A program made the translations under genes and the position numbers. From an uncultured Alcanivorax sp. (GTDB lineage: Bacteria; Pseudomonadota; Gammaproteobacteria; Pseudomonadales; Alcanivoracaceae): DNA of 64,000 nucleotides. The notes beneath the pieces are model-generated. The model was not told the origin of the DNA, did not search any database, and worked only from the letters and a program-made list of their open reading frames with translations. The DNA lies in NCBI RefSeq assembly GCF_947258575.1, contig NZ_CAMYIV010000002.1, positions 62,001-126,000 on the forward strand, in the 5' to 3' direction. Numbering within the stretch: the first letter of the stretch is position 1; every line of letters begins with the position of its first letter. Shown piece after piece: positions 45,855 to 62,492 of the stretch.

Positions 45855-45953
45855 TAAAGCCCGTGTCCTGCGTGTTCGGTGGGTGCGTATTGTAGCCAAG
45901 GGTGACGGTGCCGTCAGTGCCGGCTAGACTGCCGGTCTGATTGGGGAGGATGC

Positions 45954-46241
45954 ATGATTACATTACAACAATGGAAAGATTGTGAAGGACAGGCGTTTAC
46001 GCTGGAAAATGGCGATAGCCTGACCTTGGCGGAAGTGACGATGCCGATCTCGCCGGAGGGGTGGGAATGTTTCTCCCTGTTGTTTGCGGGGCAGGTGCAA
46101 TTGGAGCAGGGCGCCACTGTCATGCGTAACGACGTGCTTGGTGAGACATCGGTGTTTGTGGTACCGGTGGGGCCGTTGGGCGCCAGTGATGGTACCTACC
46201 ATTTCGAAGCGGTGTTCAATCGTCAGGTTGCCAGCGCATAA
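45954..46241 (+). CDS. DUF6916-like small protein
   Basis: A 95-residue beta-rich protein: LENGDSLTLAEVT, then WECFSLLFAG, and a C-terminal GTYHFEAVFNRQV. I recall this pattern as DUF6916, found beside tail-collar (microcystin-dependent-protein) genes. Such a cluster lies directly opposite here. A very good ribosome-binding site (GGGGAGGA) is present. The 3' end overlaps the converging GNAT gene by 26 nt. It may be a structural partner of the collar proteins. Confidence 0.75.
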   Translation: MITLQQWKDCEGQAFTLENGDSLTLAEVTMPISPEGWECFSLLFAGQVQLEQGATVMRNDVLGETSVFVVPVGPLGASDGTYHFEAVFNRQVASA

Positions 46242-46689
46242 GCAGGTAGACACCCTTGTCTGCCTGTTCCACAAATCCCAGCCGCTCATAGAGCCGTCGT
46301 GCCGGGTTATTGGTTTCCACGTGAATAGTCAGGGGCTTGCCGGCCCGGCGAGCCCGGGCCTGCAGGGCGGCGAGAACCTGTGACCCCAGGCCGCTGCCAC
46401 GAAAGGCCGGCAGCAGGGCAATATCCACGATGCGGATTTCCTGCTCCCAATCGGACAGGTACAGCCGCCCGGCTGTCTCCCCGCTTAACTCAATCAGATG
46501 ACGCTCTGCTTCCGGATAATGCAGCAGGTAGTGTTCGTGCTGCGCCTTGGCCTGCATGGCCAAAAAGGCATCCTGCTGCCCCTGGGGCCAGCCGGTCTGC
46601 GCCACTTCTTCCTGGCGGGTGCTGGTGTAGATGGCCAGTAACATCGGTGTGTCGTTGTCACTGGCCGGGCGTAAACGGTAGCTGTGCAT
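46216..46689 (-). CDS. GNAT-family N-acetyltransferase
   Basis: A 157-residue GNAT. The CoA-binding stretch is IALLPAFRGSGLGSQVLAAL (R/Q-x-x-G-x-G/A form), followed by VETNNPARRLYERLGF. The ATG overlaps the stop codon of the third collar gene (TAATG), so it is translated from the collar/collagen operon. Its substrate is unknown; modification of the surface proteins encoded upstream is conceivable. Confidence 0.9.
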   Translation of the reverse strand: MHSYRLRPASDNDTPMLLAIYTSTRQEEVAQTGWPQGQQDAFLAMQAKAQHEHYLLHYPEAERHLIELSGETAGRLYLSDWEQEIRIVDIALLPAFRGSGLGSQVLAALQARARRAGKPLTIHVETNNPARRLYERLGFVEQADKGVYLLMRWQPDD

Positions 46690-47105
46690 TACGAGCGGGA
46701 AGGGTAAATGCCGAACAGGGCCACAATGAAGTGCACAAAGAGCTGGGGGGTCAGCGATTCCTGGTTGTTCGAATGCGCCTGCCAGGTTTGTTGGGTTTTC
46801 CCCAGGCCGCGATCAATGCTGACGCTGGTAGTGGCAGCAACGGCACCACTGGCATTGCTGCCACTTTTGGCGCCCAGACGAGCCTGAGGAAGTCCCGGAC
46901 CCGTGCCGGCGTGTACCGGAGAGCGTCCCCGACAATCCGGTAGACCGAATGTGGTTCTGCCATCACCGCCATAAATGGTGCCAAACAGGGAAAACAGCGC
47001 ATCATTCTGTGATACGGCCAATAGTTGGCCATCGCAGAGTGCCCAGCCTCGCGGAGCAAAATTGCCCGCAAACATGCGAATTTCGCCTACAAAGGGTTCT
47101 GACAT
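46689..47105 (-). CDS. Phage-tail-collar (microcystin-dependent-protein-like) protein 3
   Basis: A 138-residue protein. The Phage_Collar-type core is EIRMFAGNFAPRGWALCDGQ, LFSLFGTIYGGDGRTTFGLP and DCRGRSPVHAGTG. It is one of three tandem paralogues sharing the N-terminal half and the PSRS/PSRG end, but with different middle segments (65-110). It lacks phage neighbours. It is the fifth gene of the operon. Confidence 0.9.
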   Translation of the reverse strand: MSEPFVGEIRMFAGNFAPRGWALCDGQLLAVSQNDALFSLFGTIYGGDGRTTFGLPDCRGRSPVHAGTGPGLPQARLGAKSGSNASGAVAATTSVSIDRGLGKTQQTWQAHSNNQESLTPQLFVHFIVALFGIYPSRS

Positions 47106-47113
47106 AGGAGCCT

Positions 47114-47524
47114 CTAGCTTCTGCTTGGGAAAAGCCCTTGCAGGGCAATGGCAAAGTTAAGCGCGATAGAATCCATCTGCGCACCATGGGTGGCAACCAG
47201 GGTGTTATTCAAGGTGCTGCCCAGATTGCGATCCAGGGTCAGGCTGTCCAGGGTGTCTCCATCATCGGCAGGCCCGGTTGTGTTCGCCGTTCCCCCTTTA
47301 GTGCCCTGATTGATGCTACCCGCTCCCGGATGCATGGGCGTGCGGCCGCGCAGGTCCGGAAGTGCAAAGCTGGTTCTGCCGTCGCCACCGTAGGTAGTGC
47401 CCAGCAGAGAATAAAGGGACTGGTTTTGATTGATCGGCAAGATTTGTCCATCGCAGAAGGCCCAACCGCGGGGCGCAAAGTTGAAGCCGTAAATGCGGAT
47501 TTCGGCGAGAAAGGGTTCGCTCAT
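47114..47524 (-). CDS. Phage-tail-collar (microcystin-dependent-protein-like) protein 2
   Basis: A 136-residue collar protein starting MSEPFLAEIRIYGFNFAPRG, with LLGTTYGGDGRTSFALPDLRG and RTPMHPGAG. The start is set by homology with the two neighbours, removing 16 codons of upstream frame. It is spaced 13 nt after protein 1 and 8 nt before protein 3. The middle region (Gly/Thr-rich, GTKGGTANTTGPADD) is unlike its paralogues. Confidence 0.9.
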   Translation of the reverse strand: MSEPFLAEIRIYGFNFAPRGWAFCDGQILPINQNQSLYSLLGTTYGGDGRTSFALPDLRGRTPMHPGAGSINQGTKGGTANTTGPADDGDTLDSLTLDRNLGSTLNNTLVATHGAQMDSIALNFAIALQGLFPSRS

Positions 47525-47537
47525 CAGTAAAAGACTC

Positions 47538-47951
47538 CTAGCCTCTGGATGGGTATAGCCCTTGCAGAGCAATGATGAAATTCAGACCCAGATAAGGATG
47601 GCGCTGATCGCCAGCGGGTATTTTGGCGGCGATAGTGCGGGTGGTCTGGCTATTGCCCAGGTTACGGTCGGGCGTGACGTTCTGTACAACCTCTACCGGG
47701 TTGTTCTCGGCCACCTGACCAAGGCGATAACTTGGCAGCCCGGGGCCTCTGCCGGGATGTGCGGGCGCTCGGCCTTGCAGATTGGGTAAGGCCACTGTGG
47801 TACGACCATCCCCGCCATAAGTGGTGCCGATCAGGCTGAACAGGGCGGTATTCTGACTGATAGGCAAGAGTTGCCCGTTGCAAAAGGCCCAGCTGCGAGG
47901 GGCGAAATTACCCGCAAAGATGCGAATTTCAGCAATAAAAGGTTCGCTCAT
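47538..47951 (-). CDS. Phage-tail-collar (microcystin-dependent-protein-like) protein 1
   Basis: A 137-residue collar protein: MSEPFIAEIRIFAGNFAPRS, LIGTTYGGDGRTTVALPNLQ and GRAPAHPGRGPG. The C-terminus GLNFIIALQGLYPSRG is shared with the other two. No signal peptide is present on any of the three. Their export, if any, must use another route, or they act inside the cell or after lysis. It follows the Tat-protein gene by 7 nt. Confidence 0.9.
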   Translation of the reverse strand: MSEPFIAEIRIFAGNFAPRSWAFCNGQLLPISQNTALFSLIGTTYGGDGRTTVALPNLQGRAPAHPGRGPGLPSYRLGQVAENNPVEVVQNVTPDRNLGNSQTTRTIAAKIPAGDQRHPYLGLNFIIALQGLYPSRG

Positions 47952-47958
47952 AGTGGCC

Positions 47959-48732
47959 TCACACGCTGATCAGCAGGTTACTGCCCGGTTGCCAGCTCAG
48001 ATGAGCCAGCTGCTGGGCGCTGGTTTGGGGGAGTGCCAGTACCGGTGTAGCTCGGTCAGCCCAGCAGAGCTGCTTCTGGCAACGATCCATGATCAATAGC
48101 TGGTCGTTCACGGCGGTCAAGCCGCTGGGCATGGTTAATGTGCTGACTTCACTGCCCAGGCTGTCGCCTGTCAGGGTGAAGTGGTGCAGTCGCCGATCGC
48201 CGAGGGTGAGCAGGGTGATGCGCTCTGCGGTTTTGGCCAGAGAGGCGGGACCATTCAGGGGCCGGTCGCTTTGCAGCCAGACTCTGGATTCATTGCGCAG
48301 ATGCAGTCGCATCAGGCGATGGCCGTGTACATCTGCGATCAAAGCGTGGTCACCATTGAGCACAAAGTCGGCAGGTTCCTGCAGATCGGTCAGACCAATA
48401 TGGCGGGCCTGGCTACCGTTGGGCCGGAACCAGCTTAGCCGACGCTGGCTGCGGTCCAGCAGGACAGCGTTATCCCCATCCAGGGCCGCGGCAACGATGC
48501 GGGTTTCGTGGGGAGCGCCGGTGTCTAGACTGATGGTGCTACCGTTGCGATACCACTGGGCTTGGCGGCCATGGTCGGTGATCTGCAGCCGCTGGTTCTC
48601 GCCGAGGGCAATCGCCCGCGCTGCACTGACCAGTTCCACGCGGGCTGCCGTGGTGCCGGCGACCAAGGGTGTGCTGAGCAGGATCCCGGCCGCGCCGCCA
48701 GCCGCGATAAACTGCCGTCGCGTGATAGCCAT
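47959..48732 (-). CDS. Tat-exported beta-propeller-like protein
   Basis: A 257-residue protein with a twin-arginine signal (ITRRQFIAAGGAAGILLSTP). The mature part is a series of short beta-strand repeats of the NHL/WD-like kind, e.g. DGDNAVLLDRSQRRLSWFRP, NGDHALIADVHGHRLMRLHL and VNDQLLIMDRCQKQLCW. No catalytic residues are recognised. The ATG shares its A with the collagen gene's TAA (TAATG), so the two are co-translated. Its fold is inferred from repeat periodicity only. Confidence 0.7.
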   Translation of the reverse strand: MAITRRQFIAAGGAAGILLSTPLVAGTTAARVELVSAARAIALGENQRLQITDHGRQAQWYRNGSTISLDTGAPHETRIVAAALDGDNAVLLDRSQRRLSWFRPNGSQARHIGLTDLQEPADFVLNGDHALIADVHGHRLMRLHLRNESRVWLQSDRPLNGPASLAKTAERITLLTLGDRRLHHFTLTGDSLGSEVSTLTMPSGLTAVNDQLLIMDRCQKQLCWADRATPVLALPQTSAQQLAHLSWQPGSNLLISV

Positions 48733-49949
48733 TAGTTGGCTACCGCGCAAGTAATGGTAATGGCGGTAGGCGTGGCGGCCGCGCCAGTCTGCCAGGTTTC
48801 GCAACTGCCGCTCCAGGCGCCGGCGGCACTGGGGTAGCTGTTGGTAATGTAGCTATTGCTGGCACACTGAACGCCACCGGCCAGTACCACGCCACTGTCA
48901 CATTGGCAGCTTGTCGCACTGGTGCAGGCCTTCTGGGCTACATTGCTGGTACTGAATGTGCCGGCTGGGCCGGTCATGCCGGTGAGCCCTATAGGGCCCT
49001 GGTTACCTGTGTCGCCTTTTGGGCCTGCGGGACCGGCGATGCCTTGCGGTCCGGCTTCACCCTGAGGTCCTTGATCACCGGTATCGCCCTTGGGGCCGAT
49101 GGGTCCAGCGGGGCCTTGGTCTCCAGTGTTGCCTTTAGGACCAGTGGGCCCAGCGATACCTTGCGGTCCGACTGCGCCTTGTGGGCCTGTATTACCGGTA
49201 TCCCCTTTGGGACCGATAGGACCGATGGGGCCCTGGCTGCCAGTCTCGCCTTTGGGGCCAATGGGGCCGGCGATGCCTTGTGGTCCAGCTTCACCCTGTG
49301 GACCTTGGGGGCCCGGTGCGCCCGCCGGACCGGGTTGCCCCGTATCACCCTGGGGCCCAGTGGGGCCGGCTTCACCAGTGTCACCTTTGGGGCCGACCAA
49401 GCCGCTGTCCGGCCCTACCCACTCACCATTTTCATTGATCAAAAGCTGATCGGCGACGCTTACCGTGCGCGGAGTGATATCCCCGTTGACCTGCTCGGCT
49501 TCGCGGGCCTGCAGGGCATAGGGCACGCTGCCGGTGGTGACGACAAGGCGCGGAGACATTTCACTGTCGCCATTAATCGCCAGCCCCAGTTCTACCTGAT
49601 TGCTTTCCAGCAGGTCATCGGGCAGGGGGTTGCTGTCGCTATCACCCAACACCAGGCTGTATCGGCCGTTCTCAACGCTGACGGTCATGTCTTCGGTCCA
49701 GAGGACTGCGCCAAGACCGAGGGGATCGGTGTTGGTCCCTCCATCATTCTGGTAGTCGGTCGTCCGCCCGGATAGATCGTAAAGGGTTGTGGTCAGAGTG
49801 TAGGTGCCATGCAGGGGCAACTGGCTGGAGCGATCGCTGAGATAGCCTTGTATGACCAGGCGTGATGGAACGGTGGCTTGCACGGCCTGAGAGAAAAGCA
49901 ACATGCAGAGCGCCATGGCCGCCAGGCCACCGCGGAGAAGCTGAAACAT
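48732..49949 (-). CDS. Secreted collagen-like protein (49 Gly-X-Y triplets)
   Basis: A 405-residue protein. The signal peptide is residues 1-25 (ends AVQA), and a globular N-domain (26-182) has SVPYALQAREAEQVNGDI. Residues 183-329 hold 49 uninterrupted Gly-X-Y triplets, rich in GPK, GDT and GPQ. The C-terminal domain (330-405) has six Cys. GPKGDT-type triplets favour collagen triple-helix stability without hydroxyproline. The protein probably forms a trimeric rod with the C-domain as a disulphide-linked cap. It is the first gene of a six-gene operon with the collar proteins. Confidence 0.9.
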   Translation of the reverse strand: MFQLLRGGLAAMALCMLLFSQAVQATVPSRLVIQGYLSDRSSQLPLHGTYTLTTTLYDLSGRTTDYQNDGGTNTDPLGLGAVLWTEDMTVSVENGRYSLVLGDSDSNPLPDDLLESNQVELGLAINGDSEMSPRLVVTTGSVPYALQAREAEQVNGDITPRTVSVADQLLINENGEWVGPDSGLVGPKGDTGEAGPTGPQGDTGQPGPAGAPGPQGPQGEAGPQGIAGPIGPKGETGSQGPIGPIGPKGDTGNTGPQGAVGPQGIAGPTGPKGNTGDQGPAGPIGPKGDTGDQGPQGEAGPQGIAGPAGPKGDTGNQGPIGLTGMTGPAGTFSTSNVAQKACTSATSCQCDSGVVLAGGVQCASNSYITNSYPSAAGAWSGSCETWQTGAAATPTAITITCAVAN

Positions 49950-50231
49950 CGAATTGTCCCCCCGAAGGCGATCTAGGCGCCCCCTTTGTCTATTTGTGCA
50001 TATAGTAAACAGTGTGACTCAGTTCAAACAAGCGCTAAAAGTGATGTTTTCTCTGGCGTTGTGCCAAGCAGGAGGACGAGACCACAGTGGTGTTGTTAAT
50101 TTCCTGGGCTGCCTCTGCGCCCGCGAAGAACCCCGGCAGGTTGAGCCGATTCGTGATTTGACCTCAAATTTTAGCGGGCTTGCGGTTACCATGACCCGTT
50201 ATTGATTGTGTTTTGCGCTGAGGATACGTCT

Positions 50232-61394: not shown

Positions 61395-62492
61395 CTAAAC
61401 ACTCAACACCACCGCCGTGCGCAGTTTGGCCTGGCCGTACTTGCGCATCTGGTCGAACTTTTCCCGGGTGATCGGCACATGCTGGCAGTCCAGGGGGACT
61501 TGGTCCTCGCCCGGGTCCGGGTCGTGAATATAAAAGCATTCCTCATCGCTGCCACTGATGGCGACCCAGTGCGGGGCCTTGCGGCCATCCAGGCGCCAGG
61601 TGCTGATCAGCACCAGCACGATGTTGCCGGCGGTGATGGCGTCGTCCAGGTCCGCGGCACTGAAATCCTCGTAACAGACCGGCAGGGATTGAGCCTTGCA
61701 GGCCTCCACGAAATAGTTGTGAAGGGTGGTGATCACCGCCTTCTTTTCAGGGTCACGGACCGAATCGACAAACAGCGGGCCGGTCTGATTGCACCAGACA
61801 CGCGCTTCGAGGCCTCGCAGACGAGCGGCCAGGGCCAGCCCCATGGGGTGGCAACCACCGTGACCGGCGGTCATGAAGATGGTAGTGGCTTCGCGCCACA
61901 GCAACAGTTCTTCGGTGGTGCTGGGTGGTTGCTGCTTGAGCGCCGCCAGAGCCATCATCAGACAGGCCGGCCCGCAGGTGAATGGCGTGGTCTGCTGCAC
62001 CCAGGGCAAATGCAGCCGTTCCGCGTTATCGGGCAGGAAGAGGAGGCGCTTCTGGTAGCGCAGGGCATCCTGGTGGTCTTCGTAGTAATCCGGGGTCTGG
62101 GCAAAAAGGCGGTAGCCGCGCTTTTCGTACAGGGCGATAGCGGCAGCGTTATCCTTGCGCACTTCCAGACGCAGGTAGGGGCGGCGCTGTAGCAGGGCGT
62201 AGTCTTCTGCAACTTCCATCAGTTTTTCCCCCAGATTGCGTCCCCGTTGCTGCGGATCCACGGCGATGGAGTAGAGTCGCGCCAGGCGGGTGCCCGGTTG
62301 CAACAGCACAAGCACATAGCCTGCCAGCGCATTGTCATCATCAACGGCGACAATCAGGCCGCTGTGTTGGCGTTTGAGCCATTTACGAAAGCTGCGTCGG
62401 GAAAGACGGTCCGATGAGAAACAGCGCTGTTCCAGCGCGGTGAGGGCGTCCAGGTCATCGGTGGTGGCGGGGCGTAGCTGAAAGCGGTACAT
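61395..62492 (-). CDS. GNAT acetyltransferase fused to C39-like cysteine peptidase
   Basis: A 365-residue fusion. The N-terminal GNAT domain (1-150) has the CoA site VDPQQRGRNLGEKLM and NAAAIALYEKRGYRLF. The C-terminal C39-like papain-fold domain (165-365) has Cys173 in TPFTCGPACLMMAL, His308 in APHWVAISG and Asp324 in YIHDPDPG. The catalytic triad is thus complete. No membrane or ABC transporter domain is present, so it is not a bacteriocin exporter. The start at MYRFQLRP drops 30 non-coding codons. Confidence 0.9.
   Translation of the reverse strand: MYRFQLRPATTDDLDALTALEQRCFSSDRLSRRSFRKWLKRQHSGLIVAVDDDNALAGYVLVLLQPGTRLARLYSIAVDPQQRGRNLGEKLMEVAEDYALLQRRPYLRLEVRKDNAAAIALYEKRGYRLFAQTPDYYEDHQDALRYQKRLLFLPDNAERLHLPWVQQTTPFTCGPACLMMALAALKQQPPSTTEELLLWREATTIFMTAGHGGCHPMGLALAARLRGLEARVWCNQTGPLFVDSVRDPEKKAVITTLHNYFVEACKAQSLPVCYEDFSAADLDDAITAGNIVLVLISTWRLDGRKAPHWVAISGSDEECFYIHDPDPGEDQVPLDCQHVPITREKFDQMRKYGQAKLRTAVVLSV

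Follow-up and report, generated by a model that had tools for sequence, protein, structure and literature searches.

A widespread bacterial module of three collar proteins, a GNAT and DUF6916, with a collagen-bearing form in Alcanivorax and a predicted heterotrimeric fibre tip

The DNA considered here, hereafter the window, is a whole stretch of 64,000 nucleotides (nt) from an uncultured Alcanivorax sp. (NZ_CAMYIV010000002.1, positions 62,001–126,000). Between mfd and tesB it carries a block of seven genes for a collagen-like protein, a protein with a twin-arginine translocation (Tat) signal, three proteins with the phage-fibre collar domain PF07484, a GNAT acetyltransferase and a DUF6916 protein (Table 1). 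A preliminary description of this DNA had reported an operon of six minus-strand genes with TAATG overlaps and short gaps, faced by the DUF6916 gene, and coordinates and junctions of all seven open reading frames (ORFs) agree with it. Along the minus strand the order is collagen-like, Tat-signal, collars 1 to 3 and GNAT; overlaps of 1 nt (TAATG) link the collagen-like gene to the Tat-signal gene and collar 3 to the GNAT gene, the gaps after the Tat-signal gene, collar 1 and collar 2 measure 7, 13 and 8 nt, and the converging DUF6916 gene overlaps the 3' end of the GNAT gene by 26 nt. This layout is beyond chance, since it recurs in many genomes.

Table 1. Coordinates of the block and its parts in the window
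Feature	Position	Strand	Evidence or remark
Collagen-like protein, 405 aa	48732..49949	-	Pfam Collagen PF01391, E 5.9e-24; N-domain, G-X-Y run and C-domain
Collagen G-X-Y run, residues 183-332	48954..49403	-	50 triplets counted
Six-Cys C-terminal domain of the collagen-like protein, residues 333-405, 73 aa	48735..48953	-	
Tat-signal protein, 257 aa	47959..48732	-	Single NHL repeat match
Collar protein, gene position 1, type 3	47538..47951	-	PF07484, E 3.1e-28; typed by profiles excluding that collar
Collar protein, gene position 2, type 1	47114..47524	-	PF07484, E 1.4e-29; typed by profiles excluding that collar
Collar protein, gene position 3, type 2	46689..47105	-	PF07484, E 1.1e-28; typed by profiles excluding that collar
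GNAT acetyltransferase, 157 aa	46216..46689	-	PF00583, E 4.3e-14
DUF6916 protein, 95 aa	45954..46241	+	PF21880, E 4.2e-16; converges on GNAT
Block found or missing as a whole between mfd and tesB	45897..50211 (borders approximate)	.	mfd-tesB distances, site comparison

All three window collars pass the curated PF07484 cut-off of 24 bits with 97.9–102.2 bits, and a profile search found no second PF07484 locus in the window's own genome. Short free-standing PF07484 proteins of this kind are, we assume, collars of the type named Microcystin-dependent protein (Mdp); a search by that name found no paper on their function among the matches listed. The collagen-like protein has a signal-peptide-like start (by eye), and its rod and six-Cys C-domain had been recognised in the preliminary description, which put the rod at 49 triplets, one short of our count. 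The same text had described a twin-arginine-exported propeller: a Tat-like start is supported by a sub-threshold Pfam match and an RRQFI motif, and the propeller is left unproven by one marginal NHL match (20.9 bits against a cut-off of 20). RGSGLG in the window GNAT is presumably the acetyl-CoA loop. The DUF6916 model is mostly beta with a predicted local distance difference test (pLDDT) score of 92.6 and had no fold match (best E 0.24 in the PDB and 0.08 among viral models).

Related loci were collected by scanning contigs with the three window collars, and the best 80 of 562 confirmed loci were used, which makes the sample lean towards window-like collars. Among 102 collar arrays, 84 have three genes, six have two and 12 have one, and none is larger. 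In a tree of 81 triplets (243 proteins, three duplicate loci dropped), the nearest collar of another locus stands at the same array position for 223 of the 243 proteins, compared with a mean of 81 and a maximum of 121 in 2000 within-array shuffles; for distant neighbours only (patristic distance >0.6) the figure is 77 of 97, and after collars from DUF6916-anchored loci had been added, 47 of 60 new triplet members agreed in position. Profiles of the three types found one of each in 61 of 62 standard arrays (5-fold test), in 16 of 19 arrays that deviate in gene order and were held out, and in 20 of 25 arrays from later fetches. The first two figures are somewhat flattered, since all 81 triplets had served to train the profiles that divided standard arrays from the others. 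The type order is 3-1-2 in all five Alcanivorax arrays, the window included, and 2-1-3 in six other arrays of the same family. The three consecutive collar genes of the window belong to three distinct types, as defined in bacterial arrays. The preliminary description had recognised the three collars and their divergent middles but took them for paralogues; judged by these comparisons, they are three old types, usually present once each even where the gene order differs.

Gene fusions bear on the same question. One locus encodes a 559-aa collar-collar-GNAT protein beside one separate collar gene (L183:2100-3779, minus strand), another a 280-aa fusion of GNAT and DUF6916 (L173:3398-4240, minus strand), which ties GNAT to the collars and to DUF6916, and in a third (L208) one chain contains two collars and the remaining collar stands alone. 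Three collars share a single frame in L201:8568-10760, L214:8313-9809, L215:8071-9570, L216:8248-9687 and L217:7860-10070, from five genomes and five genera of one family of the window's phylum outside the window's class; collars occur in 27 of 149 genomes of that family, and one more of its chains (L209) has two collars plus a degenerate third. The five chains are circularly permuted: each consists of three C-strand–core pairs in succession, strand first, and past the third core no strand was matched. A search of eight proteins recognised the opening strand at E-values between 2.5e-7 and 2e-3. If the three collars close a ring, it is sensible for a chain to begin with the strand that is missing from its final collar. 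The L201 chain has RTX repeats at its end according to a library match; by eye we take L217 to be an RTX protein too and L214–L216 to have a signal peptide and a PEP-CTERM end, and such ends would place collar triplets outside the cell.

According to PMC6116203, HxH motifs of three chains bind a metal ion in trimeric fibres, and gp12 carries the motif too. Outside Alcanivorax, HxH occurs in 74 of 76, 76 of 76 and 74 of 76 collars at the three array positions, and the stricter pattern P.H.H in all three members of 54 of 76 arrays. None of the 15 Alcanivorax collars has HxH, which is thus missing from all three; accordingly, the window collars lack a needle with HxH between the collar core and the C-terminal strand. 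Single chains likewise carry three motifs (L214, L215 and L216) or none (L201, L217 and L209), and this all-or-none pattern fits one shared site per trimer.

The core of collar triplet, GNAT and DUF6916 is widespread and normally occurs without collagen. Of 57 relatives, the window's own genome included, collars occur in 19 and DUF6916 in 13; the triplet is present in 13, of which 12 also have DUF6916 (the exception is G048), and among the 44 relatives without a triplet DUF6916 occurs in one (G025). Across 299 genomes drawn evenly from the window's phylum, 36 carry DUF6916, 72 a collar and 35 both, in line with the co-occurrence envisaged in the preliminary description. Among 67 collar-anchored triplet loci (the window in, three duplicates out, some contigs short), GNAT adjoins 63 and DUF6916 54; for the 37 with long flanks the numbers are 35 and 29. 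Anchoring on DUF6916 (37 loci, from G025 and 34 of the 36 phylum genomes with DUF6916, two genomes contributing two loci each) gives collars in 33 loci and GNAT in 32, with three collar genes in 20, two in 2, one in 10 and none in 4, and in L183 three collars in two genes. Two of the four collar-less loci lie in genomes with triplets elsewhere (G106, G238), the other two in genomes without a collar (G125, G025).

The scan loci come from Pseudomonadota, Acidobacteriota and Bacteroidota and, as metagenome-assembled genomes (MAGs), from Chloroflexota, Planctomycetota, Myxococcota and others. The complete core recurs in many Pseudomonadota isolates, including Tritonibacter, Stappia, Roseibium, Marinicella, Oceanospirillum and Colwellia, and in MAGs of other phyla; triplet and GNAT with no DUF6916 in the stretch were seen in Acanthopleuribacter and Sulfidibacter (Acidobacteriota) and in Sunxiuqinia (Bacteroidota). 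Plasmids of Ruegeria TM1040 and Aminobacter carry triplet, GNAT and a converging small gene, and a Deinococcus plasmid carries a triplet without GNAT and without a converging small gene. A distinct two-gene collar unit, in which a conserved gene of ~200–230 aa comes after a single, longer collar gene, was seen in five loci (L044–L047, L049). Sets of six (L218) and five (L219) separate collar genes were also observed.

Long genes are frequent neighbours of the triplets. A gene of at least 900 aa lies near 47 of 81 triplets, neighbour lengths being approximate because genes were called by a codon-usage script; of the 34 triplets without one, five are those of Alcanivorax; a contig end is close to 19 of the others and not to the remaining 10. 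The giants that were looked up have immunoglobulin (Ig)/cadherin, tandem-95, MBG or choice-of-anchor domains, the Ig/cadherin repeats and one rhombotarget match coming from library matches, and several presumably have signal-like starts or surface-anchor-like ends (by eye). Among the 1151 genes of 79 triplet loci, 13 of 16 Tat-type genes lie within the module (four Alcanivorax), counts that are approximate since the detector was home-made. Some DUF6916 copies also carry a Tat-like start, and together these two observations make it possible that a folded complex is carried by a Tat partner. Beside the triplet of L037, a candidate pair of type I secretion genes proved to be a thiolase and a 3-hydroxyacyl-CoA dehydrogenase. 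Position 2 holds Ser or Ala in 234 of 253 collars, in a scan partly seeded with the pattern MSEPF; N-terminal acetylation of the collars by GNAT was set aside, given that seeding and the internal position of the like motif in the L183 fusion, and is only an open idea. A protein of ~416 aa with a sub-threshold Tectonin match is encoded between collar 3 and GNAT by L109:8498-9796 and by 10 related genes, mostly in Alphaproteobacteria; homology of the window Tat protein with a propeller-like gene in that position elsewhere was rejected (hhalign probability 0.4%).

The collagen-like and Tat-signal genes are the Alcanivorax-specific part of the module. Among the 57 relatives, the collagen C-domain occurs in five genomes (own genome included), all Alcanivorax with the block and never without collars, and the Tat-signal protein is matched at E <1e-100 only in the same five, with one further weak match in G004 (E 7.2e-4). 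The number of G-X-Y triplets ranges from 38 to 50 across the five genomes, the C-domain in all of them having 73 aa and six Cys; a fixed C-domain on a rod of varying length is as expected of a trimer cap, which this domain may be. The block is real and unusual, and the reading of it in the preliminary description was partly right but too local: the rarity lies in the collagen variant and the meaning in the common core.

Within the genus, the block is present or absent en bloc, which bears out the view of the seven genes as one unit. The distance between mfd and tesB is ~4.2–4.4 kb in five of 17 genus genomes (G000, G002, G006, G013, G014) and 157–634 bp in the remaining 12, and the tesB genes of three block-free genomes (G005, G009, G010) are 98–99% identical to that of the window. 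At the twelve empty sites, similarity to the window ends on the left at 45,871–45,913 (at 46,278 in L192) and resumes on the right at 50,183–50,213. In G015, the otherwise empty site holds a decayed remnant of DUF6916 and GNAT (L192 ~578–991), so that the history involves, at least in part, the loss of an older block. Collar identities are ~90% in G006 and G013 against 86–89% for tesB and mfd, and 69–75% in G014 against 85–89%. Recent gain in Alcanivorax was therefore rejected: given the G015 scar and collar identities that roughly track the genomes, an older block with repeated loss is likelier.

The closest published parallel is viral. According to PMC12724248 (J Virol, 2025), Dishui Lake Virophage 2 has three PF07484 proteins from consecutive genes that co-purify 1:1:1, form ~16-nm fibres and bind Synechococcus cells, and the collar of gp37 consists of residues 811–860 and a final stretch, 1016–1026. 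As described there, the virophage tail resembles the bacterial module in its three consecutive genes and in a gp37-like collar made of an N-terminal part and a C-terminal strand, a likeness that rests on the published description. In contrast to the bacterial module, it is a capsid fibre, and the described partners include no GNAT, DUF6916, giant or collagen; in a term search, the main text does not mention "GNAT", "prophage" or "bacterial genome". The tips of T4 gp12 (short tail fibre) and gp37 share the collar domain (1ocy matches the collar profile at E 1.5e-5) but belong to homotrimers with long shafts in a virion, whereas the window collars are free-standing, ~137 aa long and without HxH. 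Collagen-like adhesins of the Lcl/Scl kind (NCBIfam) share the G-X-Y rod; the window protein scores 106.9 bits with the Lcl model, far from the curated cut-off of 500, and matches only over rod residues 182–337. The Bdellovibrio mosaic adhesive trimer (NF053851) is, by its model name, also a chimeric fibre outside a virion, but the match to its N-domain model is not significant (E 0.09, 12.5 bits against a cut-off of 60), and a literature search found no paper on it. Searches of PMC by term found no description of the bacterial collar module among the matches listed.

Considering these comparisons, we propose that the window collars probably, though far from certainly, make up a single obligate heterotrimer at the tip of an outer fibre whose stalk is collagen, and that GNAT and DUF6916 serve this tip. 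We infer heterotrimer formation here, for which the comparison of arrays and the published relative give good support, and likewise collar export, collagen docking, adhesion and the roles of GNAT and DUF6916. In the hypothetical scheme, (i) one subunit of each collar type would join a single heterotrimer of pseudo-threefold symmetry, a homologue of the trimeric collar and tip of T4-type tail fibres, and each subunit would contribute the core of a collar and a C-terminal strand running back to that collar, with a needle between core and strand that would carry HxH in most relatives and be cut short in all three Alcanivorax collars; (ii) the collars would fold together in the cytoplasm, helped by DUF6916 and GNAT, probably the latter as modifying enzyme and the former as its adaptor or as an assembly factor; (iii) the assembled tip would reach the surface and cap a stalk, the folded complex possibly being carried out by a Tat partner, for which the 257-aa protein would be the window's candidate (a guess); (iv) the stalk would often be a giant surface protein of Ig/cadherin type and in Alcanivorax a secreted collagen-like trimer with a six-Cys cap, accompanied by the Tat-exported accessory protein; and (v) the likely job would be attachment to surfaces or binding of glycans or lipopolysaccharide. 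For the wider generalisation, that several phyla share an undescribed fibre with a closed tip of three obligate collars that cannot replace one another (products of three genes or of one permuted chain), its own GNAT and DUF6916 and interchangeable stalks, Alcanivorax having exchanged the giant for a collagen triple helix so that a trimeric rod bears the heterotrimeric tip, we see about an even chance.

The strongest competitor to heterotrimer formation is that the collars form three separate homotrimers, each a lectin of its own specificity, kept as a repertoire. The three types are indeed distinct and old, the middles of the window collars diverge, and T4 fibres and many one-gene loci manage with one collar gene. 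A repertoire should, however, vary in number, and the 102 arrays never exceed three; larger sets often have six or nine members (exceptions are the set of five in L219, a triplet plus one in G262 and a triplet plus a fibre collar in L264–L266), one of each type is mostly kept under changed gene order, HxH is missing from all three together, five single chains have exactly three collars and a sixth has three with one degenerate, and the precedent in the virophage, as far as PMC12724248 describes it, is a heterotrimer. We regard separate homotrimers as unlikely. Doubtful too, if less so, is a heterotrimeric tip beside which the collagen-like protein is an independent adhesin that joined the operon and not the stalk: its C-domain is confined to five Alcanivorax genomes and no domain shared with the giants was found, yet it never occurs without collars in the 57 relatives, its gene overlaps the next by 1 nt, and it occupies the place beside the collars that in other genomes is often taken by a giant.

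That collars, GNAT and DUF6916 act as an intracellular complex, with collagen and Tat protein merely co-transcribed, would agree with the lack of signal peptides on these proteins (by eye) and with the fusions that tie collars to a cytoplasmic-type enzyme. It accords poorly with single-chain collars that elsewhere go with RTX or, by eye, with a signal peptide and PEP-CTERM, with the long genes near 47 of 81 triplets, several surface-type by eye, and with the concentration of Tat-type genes in the module (13 of 16), and we consider it quite improbable. Least credible by a wide margin is a prophage or tailocin remnant, which the preliminary description had already argued against. PF07484 is a phage-fibre domain, the best phage matches of the window collars are tail proteins, and some IMG/VR contigs hold full-length collar triplets, several of them bacterial-looking. 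However, none of the 274 matching phage records covers 80% of a collar, DUF6916 has no match in phage records, no virion, lysis or integration genes adjoin the block among the neighbours searched, the neighbours are housekeeping genes, the site is a short intergenic space in 12 of 17 congeners, and distant bacteria carry the same module, on chromosomes as well as on plasmids. As first suggested, the most likely reading is a fibre at the cell surface or outside the cell, assembled from tail-fibre-like parts.

Several observations weigh against this proposal or limit it. Collar matches per genome among the 72 phylum genomes are one in 32, two in 9, three in 27, four in 1 and six in 3, and at least three of the 27 three-match genomes (G072, G293, G308) do not have them in one three-gene array; the 11 collar-anchored loci without a triplet have GNAT in three and DUF6916 in four. 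One-gene collar forms are common and may be homotrimers, some of them long fibre-like genes. The rule of one of each type failed in five of 25 and three of 19 arrays, and the standard arrays were chosen by profiles trained on the same set. In the single chains, some inner strands match weakly (E 0.003–0.04), the cores do not sort as types 1-2-3, perhaps reflecting a separate, parallel triplication, and no GNAT or DUF6916 match lies beside them in the fetched stretches, which suggests that those partners are not always needed. No homology was found between the collagen C-domain and the giants, and no export signal was seen by eye on the window collars, GNAT and DUF6916. The collar monomer model has a pLDDT of 41, which fits an intertwined trimer and proves nothing.

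If the heterotrimeric tip is real, collar triplets would be a surface device common among bacteria, a stoichiometry and a location could be predicted for PF07484 triplets outside prophages, and DUF6916 would gain a context. Evolution from homotrimer to obligate heterotrimer could be traced through one-gene, three-gene and one-chain forms, and the virophage heterotrimer would gain a possible cellular counterpart. In three plasmid records the triplets are annotated as "tail fiber protein", with genes annotated as "GNAT" (two of three) and "hypothetical" adjoining, and under that annotation triplets can pass for prophage debris.

Viral contigs show related arrangements. In a scan of them (best 80 loci), collar ORFs number one in 53 loci, two in 10, three in 12 and four in 3, with sets of six and nine besides. 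Tandem runs of nine and six collar ORFs, both multiples of three, occur in the IMG/VR contigs L224 (1-5456) and L221 (5474-8690), respectively, and the IMG/VR contig L223 has collars, GNAT and converging DUF6916 in bacterial order and is probably a bacterial fragment. Most of the viral contigs L263–L272 carry three tandem collars of 227–236 aa, and L264–L266 also a 1314-aa ORF with a collar at its C-terminal end.

Around the block, ten neighbours were searched (36.8–42.1 kb, mfd and 50.2–55.2 kb, leaving out the window genes from 1 to 36.8 kb), and all are metabolic, repair or envelope genes, among them 2-oxoacid dehydrogenase components, an ELFV dehydrogenase, CsiV, Mfd, an acyl-CoA thioesterase, UDG, a GapA-like protein and NqrA; this accords with the earlier statement that no phage structural, lysis or integration genes lie nearby. 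The window contains no tRNA and no Rfam match above the gathering score, and anti-phage defence models of PADLOC matched none of the seven block proteins at E 0.001. Searched against PHROGs, nine window genes gave no tail, lysis or integration family; two match families of unknown function and one matches acetyltransferases. A second acetyltransferase-like gene with a PHROG match lies at least 11 kb from the block, at 61395-62492 on the minus strand.

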